Origin: Methylosinus sp. LW4
GTDB lineage: Bacteria; Pseudomonadota; Alphaproteobacteria; Rhizobiales; Beijerinckiaceae
Reading direction: 5' to 3'
NCBI RefSeq assembly: GCF_000379125.1
Contig: NZ_KB900626.1
Coordinates: 2,676,667 to 2,740,666 of the forward strand
Length of the DNA stretch: 64,000 bases
The notes below the pieces were generated by a model. That model searched no databases. It had not been told where the DNA came from and saw only the letters and a program-made list of their open reading frames with translations. Position numbers and translations under genes: made by a program. Shown here one piece after another: positions 42,198-43,787 of this stretch (position 1 is the first letter of the stretch; the number at the start of each line of letters is the position of its first letter).

Positions 42198-43178
42198 ATG
42201 CGCGCGCCTGACTTCTGGCGACGCGCGCCGGCCTCGCCGCTGGCGCGGGCTCTGGCGCCGTTCGGCGCGCTCTACGGCGCGGCCGTTTCAGCGCGCATGA
42301 GACGGAGGGGCGCGCGCGCCGATCTTCCGACGATCGTGATCGGCGGCCCGACGCTCGGCGGCGACGGCAAGACGCCGGCCGCGCTCGCCATCGCCGCTCT
42401 GCTCACGGAAATGGGCGAGCGGCCCTTCTTCCTCACCCGCGGATATGGCCGCCGCACTGCGCGGCGCGCGCCTTTTCTCATCGATCCGAGCATTCATTCC
42501 GTGCGCGAGACGGGCGATGAAGCGCTGCTGCTGGCACGCTGCGCTCCGACCATCGTCGGCGCCGACCGCGCGGCCGGCGCGCGGCTCGCACGCGCTCTCG
42601 GCGCGACGGCGCTGGTGCTGGACGATGGCTTGCAGAGCCGGCGGCTCGAGCCCGATCTCGCATTGATGGTCGTCGACGGCGCCTATGCCGCCGGCAATGG
42701 CCTATGCCCGCCCGCCGGCCCGCTGCGCGCGCCCTTGCCCGGCCAGCTCGCCGCTGTGGATGCGCTCGTGCTGATCGGCGAAGGCGCGGCGGGAGAAGCG
42801 GTCGCCGCACATGCGAGAGCGGCGGGAAAGCCCGTTCTGCGCGCCGGCGTCGCGCCCCTCCCCGCGCGCCTTCCGCAGCGCGCGCTCGCCTTTGCGGGCA
42901 TCGCGCGGCCGCAGAAGTTTTTCGCGACTCTGGAGGCTTTGGGGCTCGAGATCGTCGGCCGAAAAAGCTTCGCCGATCATCATGCCTTCACGGCGCGCGA
43001 GATGGCGGCGCTCGAGCGCGAAGCCGCGCGTCTTCGCGCGACGCTGGTCACGACGGAAAAAGACGCGGCGCGTCTTTCGCCCGACATGGCCGCGCGCGTG
43101 GACGTTCTACCGATCGACCTCCGCTTCGCAGAGGAAGAAGACATGCGCGCGCTCCTTCGCCGCTCCATTACGGATTAA
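42198..43178 (+). CDS. lpxK: Tetraacyldisaccharide 4'-kinase
   Basis: 326 aa. It phosphorylates the lipid A disaccharide at 4'. The P-loop reads GGPTLGGDGKTPAALAIA, with Asp where GGTGKTP is usual in enterobacteria, a variation I think is tolerated. Other motifs: SDEALLLA-like GDEALLLARCAPTIVGADR and VLDDGLQSRRLEPDL. The 3' end overlaps the convergent yjdF-like gene by 4 bp. Confidence 0.96.
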   Translation: MRAPDFWRRAPASPLARALAPFGALYGAAVSARMRRRGARADLPTIVIGGPTLGGDGKTPAALAIAALLTEMGERPFFLTRGYGRRTARRAPFLIDPSIHSVRETGDEALLLARCAPTIVGADRAAGARLARALGATALVLDDGLQSRRLEPDLALMVVDGAYAAGNGLCPPAGPLRAPLPGQLAAVDALVLIGEGAAGEAVAAHARAAGKPVLRAGVAPLPARLPQRALAFAGIARPQKFFATLEALGLEIVGRKSFADHHAFTAREMAALEREAARLRATLVTTEKDAARLSPDMAARVDVLPIDLRFAEEEDMRALLRRSITD

Positions 43179-43594
43179 CGGTCGCCGCGACGCGCCTTCG
43201 CTCTGCTCCGACGCCGATTCCAACGGCGCTCACGCTCCTCCTCGCGCCGCGTAGCCGCCTCGGCGCGCCTCTGTTTCTTGCGTTGTTCCAGAGCGACTCG
43301 CATCGCCTCCCGCGCCTTTGAGCCGAAACCGATCGTCGCCGCCTCGAGCGCGGCGAGGCGCCTCGCGCGCTTGGGATTCGGCTTTTCGGCGCCAGGCGCC
43401 TCCGGCGCACCCCCACAAGGGTGGAACTGCAGGCGAGGTAGCTCGCGATCGACCCAATAGAGCAATTCGGCATTGCTCGGCTCGGCGCCGAAGCAATGGC
43501 GCGCCGTCTCGAGGCCGTCCTCGCTGCGCCGCTCGATCTCGGCGACCCAAAACTGGCCGTCGAAAAATATGGATGTGATTGTTCTGGTGAGCAT
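43175..43594 (-). CDS. yjdF: YjdF family protein (DUF2992)
   Basis: 139 aa. The first 50 residues (SIFFDGQFWVAEIERRSEDG, ARHCFGAEPSNAELLYWVDR) are clearly YjdF-like: the FxDGQFWVxxxE and FGxEPSxxE motifs. The second half is a long Arg/Lys/Glu-rich helix (about residues 70-139). In Bacillota, yjdF is controlled by a riboswitch that binds azaaromatics; the protein's biochemical role is unknown. Here it follows a heavily structured leader (see 43595-43698). Confidence 0.85.
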   Translation of the reverse strand: MLTRTITSIFFDGQFWVAEIERRSEDGLETARHCFGAEPSNAELLYWVDRELPRLQFHPCGGAPEAPGAEKPNPKRARRLAALEAATIGFGSKAREAMRVALEQRKKQRRAEAATRREEERERRWNRRRSRAKARRGDR

Positions 43595-43698
43595 TATCCG
43601 ACCCTACAGACGCACTTTCTCATGCGCCGAGGGTCACGCCGATAGGCGACGTGACAGAGCCCTGCTCTCACAGGGCGCCCGGACTCACCTCACCGGGC
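43595..43698 (-). promoter_or_regulatory. Structured 5' leader of yjdF, candidate riboswitch
   Basis: Four hairpins in a row on the minus-strand RNA. H1 (43698-43677): 6-bp GCCCGG stem, 10-nt loop. H2 (43676-43659): 6-bp GCCCTG stem, hexaloop TGAGAG. H3 (43655-43633): GTCACG/CGTGAC stem with possible inner CGCC/GGCG. H4 (43635-43600): outer GACCCT/AGGGTC, inner GCGCAT/GTGCGT. The AGGG in the last arm is the likely ribosome site, 7 nt before the ATG, so H4 hides it; H3 and H4 share three bases. Family not recognised. Confidence 0.6.
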
Positions 43699-43787
43699 CG
43701 CCTTTTTCCGACCGGCAAATATTACCGCGGTTTGGAATTCATGTCATCGGTTTTTCGCGGGAGAGCGCGCAGAACGTCGAGCGTGCT

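Follow-up and report, generated by a model that had tools for sequence, protein, structure and literature searches.

A divergent yjdF-type riboswitch candidate with a rebuilt ligand pocket ahead of yjdF in Methylosinus sp. LW4 and four other alphaproteobacterial loci

The leader of the yjdF gene in Methylosinus sp. LW4 raises the question of whether a riboswitch class described from other phyla also occurs in the Alphaproteobacteria, and whether its ligand pocket is the same there. The gene lies within a 64,000-nucleotide stretch of contig NZ_KB900626.1, which is referred to here as the window. In PMC4793209 (Li et al. 2016) the yjdF (azaaromatic) riboswitch, RF01764, is attributed to Firmicutes, Actinobacteria, Fusobacteria, Spirochaetes and Synergistetes; Proteobacteria are not named in that list, and the string 'proteobacteri' does not occur anywhere in the text of PMC4793209 or PMC9142559. 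A literature search of partial coverage returned no published report of an alphaproteobacterial form. Both the natural ligand of these riboswitches and the function of the YjdF protein are described as unknown in PMC10987639 and PMC4793209. The initial annotation of the locus had proposed a riboswitch candidate and offered two readings, a class not described before or a remote relative within the yjdF motif. From sequence comparison, we consider the window leader to be a real, conserved and divergent yjdF-type riboswitch candidate that falls outside the Rfam threshold and has a rebuilt pocket common to five leaders. The lineage would then include a phylum that is missing from the taxa listed above.

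The gene had been correctly recognised as yjdF in the initial annotation, and together with its leader it fills an interval between lpxK and a gene encoding a DUF2093 protein:

43175 to 43594, minus strand: yjdF gene, encoding a DUF2992 protein of 139 aa (PF11208, E 8.3e-31)
43179 to 43787, no strand assigned: gap of 609 bp from the lpxK stop to the DUF2093 stop, occupied by yjdF and its leader

The final four bases of yjdF overlap the end of lpxK, whose product in the window is 87% identical to LpxK of Methylosinus sp. PW1. The lpxK–DUF2093 interval lacks a yjdF-type insertion in nine of nine congeners, where the two genes are close and leave no room for yjdF. They almost adjoin in four of these loci (L098-L101) and are separated in L102 by an unrelated stretch of about 100 bases; the interval in L103 was scored by locus layout because the BLAST match covered the DUF2093 side only. 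Two of the same-genus lpxK matches (L103 and L105) lie inside unusually long open frames of 514 and 518 aa.

In overlapping sets of genomes searched for PF11208, a match was present in one of 199 genomes of the window's family, namely the window's own, and was absent from all eight other genus members in that set (the ninth congener, G1546, lies outside it). The 385 genomes of the class gave two matches, the window's own and one in genome G396 that falls below the family cut-off (E 6.9e-4) and contains an internal stop. Beyond the window's own genome there was none in 397 genomes of the order or 398 of the phylum. The family-level set was therefore unusable for comparison of leaders, and relatives were instead taken from a scan for YjdF relatives across bacterial and archaeal genomes, in which 124 loci were confirmed and the best 80 of the 124 were analysed.

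Four of these best 80 loci are alphaproteobacterial: Sinorhizobium sp. A49 (L004), Novosphingobium sp. CF614 (L005), a Devosia MAG (L006) and an alphaproteobacterial MAG (L007). A leader of the window type precedes yjdF in all four; the initial annotation had named a lack of conserved stems in ortholog leaders as a refutation, and this check came out in its favour. An Rfam scan of the whole window at gathering score reported tRNA only. A search with RF01764, as had been suggested, here run at a lax threshold, yielded a match at 43719-43616 that spans the full model (1-101) with 29.2 bits (E 0.0021 in 401 bases), which is below the gathering score of 45 bits. The leaders of L006 and L007 scored 24.4 and 24.2 bits, both in register just 5' of yjdF, and no RF01764 match was reported for L004 and L005 at E 5. 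Among the 76 loci from other phyla the gathering score was reached in 49 (20/20, 8/20, 12/20 and 9/16 by batch).

A covariance model built from the five alphaproteobacterial leaders only (R1) was searched against 542 kb up to E 10 and gave 43 matches, comprising the five training sequences, 33 correctly placed yjdF leaders of other phyla and five matches elsewhere. Many of the 33 are individually weak (E 0.0006 to 2.8), the evidence being their placement. On the window's genome R1 found one strong copy only. As R1 recovers these 33 yjdF leaders, there is good support for a shared origin with the yjdF riboswitch. All five alphaproteobacterial elements are located in the 5' leader of yjdF with the P1–P4 four-stem junction in the published order (as judged by model alignment and five-leader pairing). 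The idea of a distant yjdF member is thus upheld, while that of an undescribed class finds no support.

The leader RNA reads 5' to 3' from 43712 to 43595, with the structured element at 43712-43601, and is organised as follows:

43742 to 43746, minus strand: putative promoter-like -35 element TGACA, exactly 34 nt 5' of P1 (GUCG) in four of the five leaders
43719 to 43724, minus strand: putative promoter-like -10 element TAATAT, its TA at identical offset in five of five
43709 to 43712, minus strand: 5' strand of P1, GUCG, pairing with CGGC at 43629-43626; four pairs kept in five of five
43699 to 43708, minus strand: J1/2, GAAAAAGGCG, corresponding to the A-rich junction of the yjdF aptamer; retains the A run and C18 and has G for C16
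43677 to 43698, minus strand: P2 (6 bp, one pair varying between C-G and U-A) with T-loop-like L2, UGAGGUGAGU; GGU and AG kept as in RF01764
43686, minus strand: extra purine between GGU and AG of L2, in all five alphaproteobacterial leaders
43659 to 43676, minus strand: P3, kept in four of five; two of the four counted pairs are broken in L005 as aligned
43633 to 43655, minus strand: P4, nine base pairs, GUCACGUCG / CGGCGUGAC; two-sided change at six of nine pairs, 95.6% of cells paired
43630 to 43633, minus strand: CCCU, the last base of P4 plus J4/1, also the anti-Shine-Dalgarno; ACCC invariant in five of five; pairs with AGGG in the fold
43626 to 43629, minus strand: 3' strand of P1, CGGC, also within the 5' arm of P5 (overlap read from sequence)
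43601 to 43634, minus strand: P5 hairpin hiding the likely ribosome site AGGG (43605-43602), predicted in five of five

Transcription may start at or near P1, since TGACA (in four of the five, L007 having TGCCG at this position) and TA (in all five) stand at fixed offsets from it; both promoter activity and this start are suggested by sequence motifs. The AGGG ribosome site is seven bases ahead of the AUG, and in the window, L004 and L006 its bases are paired with a probability of at least 0.85. The element had originally been drawn at 43595..43698, an interval that contains P2 to P5 and cuts off P1 (43712-43709/43629-43626) and J1/2 (43708-43699). The four consecutive hairpins described there can form, as P2 (43698-43677), P3 (43676-43659), P4 (43655-43633) and P5 (43634-43601), although not all in one minimum-energy fold. 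Likewise, the last stem does pair AGGG with CCCT (43605-43602 with 43633-43630), and the three bases said to be common to the last two stems are GAC at 43635-43633, between P4 and P5.

The window leader folds with a z score of -3.41, and none of 200 shuffles was equally stable. Two computations of its minimum-energy fold contain P3 and P5 in both cases, P2 in one and P1 and P4 in neither, so the case for P1, P2 and P4 comes from comparison with relatives; in L004 the minimum-energy fold is without P2. In an alignment of the five homologous leaders (A2: window, L004, L005, L006 and L007), 96.5% of the cells in P1–P4 are paired and eight of 23 pairs are changed on both sides, a count that 0 of 500 shuffles reach. 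The covariation score for P1–P4 is 0.400 compared with 0.210 in shuffles (0/500 as high), and P4 supplies most of it with six of its nine pairs. P5 has four of 14 pairs changed on both sides, which is reached by eight of 500 shuffles for the count and by none of 500 for the covariation score. Its register is shifted in L007 in a manner not visible in the alignment, and in L005 48 of 300 mononucleotide shuffles form an equally stable P5. Covariation among five related sequences gives indications rather than proof, as shuffling leaves their relatedness in. P1 is not proved by covariation because it is nearly invariant, with three unchanging pairs and one that is U-G or U-A. The minimum-energy folds of L004-L007 contain a 3-bp hairpin in which GUC of P1 pairs with the GRC that arises where C16 is replaced by G; it was judged too short to argue for.

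Taken together, the structures common to the five leaders, the homology with RF01764 and the regulated gene make it probable that this leader belongs to the lineage of the yjdF (azaaromatic) riboswitch as a divergent member and is a putative translational ON switch for yjdF. The published class acts as an ON switch through access to the ribosome site (PMC10987639 and PMC4793209). The 5' arm of P5 includes both the 3' strand of P1 (43629-43626) and the CC of J4/1, so that the aptamer and P5 are mutually exclusive. Without ligand, the Shine-Dalgarno AGGG would be tied up with CCCU in P5, keeping translation low. Ligand would stabilise the P1–P4 aptamer, in which the CC of J4/1 is expected to pair with the GG of L2 and the adjoining CGGC would pair with GUCG as P1, drawing on the 5' arm of P5; loss of this arm to the aptamer would then free the ribosome site. 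We infer ligand binding, a planar aromatic compound or a relative as the ligand, P1 itself and the ON direction, and the L2–J4/1 contact is carried over by analogy from the crystal structure of another member.

The closed fold (P2–P5) lies below the open fold (P1–P4) by 9.5 kcal/mol in the window to 14.4 kcal/mol in L004, as computed for the five leaders without tertiary contacts or ligand. It is the lower of the two in all five, which would make closed, or OFF, the default state, in keeping with the ON direction expected for the class (PMC4793209). A difference of this size is large for a ligand to overcome at equilibrium, and therefore switching would have to be co-transcriptional. The model in PMC4793209 pairs P4 with the ribosome site, whereas in the five alphaproteobacterial folds its partner is J4/1 and P1 sequence. 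A crude count, made with a rough ribosome-site window and with too long a P4 stretch for the alphaproteobacterial L005, gave for the 49 other leaders complementarity to the ribosome site with a mean run of 6.5 to P4 and 7.3 to J4/1-P1. As both complementarities occur in the 49, this distinction separates the groups poorly; the proposal that J4/1-P1 pairing is peculiar to Alphaproteobacteria was dropped, long complementarity of this kind being present in several Coriobacteriia. Points that count against the ON-switch explanation as a whole are that the three scored leaders are below the gathering score, that pocket residues otherwise invariant are changed and that P1 has four base pairs and is nearly invariant.

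The changed residues can be placed with reference to crystal structures of the Ruminococcus gauvreauii riboswitch, in which the ligand sits between U55 and A56 of L2, above a platform in which G53-G54 pair with C118-C117 of J4/1, and is surrounded by C16-G95, A97, U96 and A17-U58 (PMC10987639). The motifs AACAC, GGUAGU, AAGUA and UCC served to place the crystal residues on the Rfam consensus. Among 41 aligned leaders of RF01764 level, C16, A17, C18, G54, A56, G57, U58, G95, U96 and A97 are invariant, and position 55 carries U in 38 leaders and C in the other three. When all 49 leaders of this level are considered, C16 and GUA (A97) are kept in 49, A17 in 48 and an insertion between U55 and A56 is found in none. 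The J1/2 motif CAC is thus seen in 41 of 41 aligned leaders, and in 48 of 49 overall (it is present in L016, L020 and L022), the exception being L030, which has CGC. This leader, from Eubacterium barkeri (L030, 2832-2957), has G in place of A17 and C in place of U58, a double change that would preserve the A17-U58 pair in the form of G-C. The alphaproteobacterial leaders depart from this pattern in a consistent way. One extra purine splits GGU from AG in all five (G in four, A in one), C16 is G in all five and A17 is A in three and G in two. J3/4, CAGUA in the known class, is changed from GUA to GUC or GUU, the C or U at A97 being paired within P4, and J4/1 is ACCC in place of GUCC, with CC kept. 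The five also retain the A run, C18, GGU and AG together with the first U of L2, as well as G95 and U96.

In summary of the comparison with RF01764 (PMC10987639; structures 8UIW and 8UTA; PMC4793209), both forms stand 5' of yjdF (DUF2992) and have a P1–P4 junction, an A-rich J1/2, GGU and AG in L2, CC in J4/1 and a ribosome site controlled in cis. The alphaproteobacterial form differs in its scores of 24.2-29.2 bits where reported, in the L2 purine, the C16-to-G change and J3/4 GU(C/U), in a P4 of nine pairs compared with about four plus non-canonical contacts, and in a P1 of four pairs. Its ribosome site pairs with J4/1 and P1 in a local hairpin, in contrast to pairing with P4 in the model of PMC4793209. 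Departure from the yjdF consensus has a precedent in yjdF-like RNAs of Streptococcus thermophilus (PMC2864571), for which the authors raised a distinct ligand as a possibility. These also depart at P4, but they are without consensus features from P4 onwards and precede an NAD operon, whereas in the alphaproteobacterial leaders P4 is reinforced and the gene is yjdF; the two are set apart here by description.

It is possible that the rebuilt leaders are ordinary azaaromatic riboswitches that have drifted, recognising the same ligands through a different local solution of the pocket, and we regard this as close to an even prospect without quite reaching one. The gene under control has not changed; GGU and AG, the opening U of L2, C18, G95, U96 and the J4/1 CC persist; and the ligand range of the class is reported to be broad (PMC4793209). 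Set against such drift is the conservation of C16, A97 and the uninterrupted loop in 49 of 49 leaders, including those of Bacillota, Actinomycetota and Spirochaetota, and because they are so kept these features can be argued to matter for the azaaromatic ligand set.

A pocket that accepts a different ligand, within the same fold and expression logic, is somewhat less probable, though a serious possibility. Here the L2 purine would fill or reshape the slot between U55 and A56, and the lost C16-G95 and A97 contacts would open one side of the pocket. All of the changes fall at pocket positions of the crystal structure (PMC10987639) and occur in five of five leaders compared with none of the 49 others, and P4 is lengthened by pairs that involve G95 and U96, residues of the pocket lining in other members. 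The P2 loop also appears to tolerate little: in the B. subtilis RNA a single mutation of a conserved A or G there abolishes proflavine and riboflavin binding (PMC4793209), and on this analogy an insertion common to all five leaders is unlikely to be neutral. Nevertheless, the known class is promiscuous, such that pocket changes need not alter the ligand, the regulated gene is unchanged, and the crystal numbering was mapped by motif. A change of ligand on a kept scaffold has been described for the ykkC subtypes and for a spermidine variant of the SAM aptamer (PMC7266159 and PMC10853860), which have a known new ligand, whereas for the alphaproteobacterial variant the change of ligand is itself a proposal. 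A natural variant with small, defined pocket changes allows a direct comparison and so narrows the search for the real ligand of the class.

It is unlikely that the leader is a ligand-independent tRNA-like element, in which the extra purine would serve as a built-in T-loop intercalator and P5 would answer to temperature, ribosomes or the speed of transcription. Certain T-loops do contain an intercalating base (PMC10987639), the insertion is a purine in five of five leaders, and tRNA-like leaders can increase translation without ligand (PMC9142559); in all five, however, the computed energies strongly favour P5, and this speaks against a leader that is open constitutively. Less probable still is an autoregulatory leader bound by the basic YjdF protein, or by another protein, in place of a small molecule. 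YjdF has a Lys/Arg-rich C-terminal stretch predicted to form a long helix (mean pLDDT 81, pTM 0.41), but homologous leaders bind small molecules directly (PMC4793209) and a structural search with YjdF gave no significant relative that would indicate RNA binding. Hairpins arising by chance, or a transcription terminator, could be imagined in a G+C-rich gap with hairpins between two genes and not all stems in the window's minimum-energy fold, yet either is very unlikely, to the point of being negligible, given the folding z score, two-sided changes in five genomes, the five-leader alignment with its P1–P4 covariation, the RF01764 and R1 matches and the absence of the sequence from the congeners' gap.

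Beyond the known loci, PF11208 was found in none of 195 genomes of the genus of the Novosphingobium locus, 75 of that of the Devosia locus and 16 of that of the Sinorhizobium locus, nor in 199 genomes of the order of the L007 MAG. Viral contigs gave no match by leader pattern and 15 stretches by protein, none of them confirmed, and phages gave none; five plasmid records were found by protein (Priestia and Subdoligranulum) and none by leader DNA. In a tree of YjdF proteins with few columns and long branches, the alphaproteobacterial proteins and their metagenomic kin group together weakly (16 rows, support 87/39), within which two parts are well supported, one of 13 rows (98/95) and one formed by L007, P0012 and P0013 (100/100). 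The variant leader is present in both parts. The pattern suggests joint movement of riboswitch and gene as a single unit. More speculatively, and with somewhat less assurance than a change of ligand as such, we suggest an alphaproteobacterial yjdF-derived subclass in which the slot has been rebuilt (by the extra purine, C16 to G, and G95 and U96 taken into P4) for a non-azaaromatic compound, and which would travel with yjdF between distant Alphaproteobacteria as an own-promoter unit of about 0.6 kb.

The Novosphingobium locus carries a tRNA, a transposase (HTH_Tnp_1) and a phage integrase gene less than about 3 kb from yjdF (L005, 4054-6326), a possible transfer route. The annotated YjdF at this locus (P0010; L005, 2926-3347) is extended at its N terminus by what looks like translated leader, and the codon aligned with the start of other members is AUA. 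At six loci with yjdF riboswitches (L015, L025, L029, L044, L051 and L055), whose names are Lawsonibacter, Flintibacter, Oscillospiraceae or unclassified, an FMN riboswitch lies on the opposite strand about 0.9-1.3 kb 3' of yjdF. Flavins bind yjdF RNAs and are judged to be unlikely natural ligands in PMC4793209.
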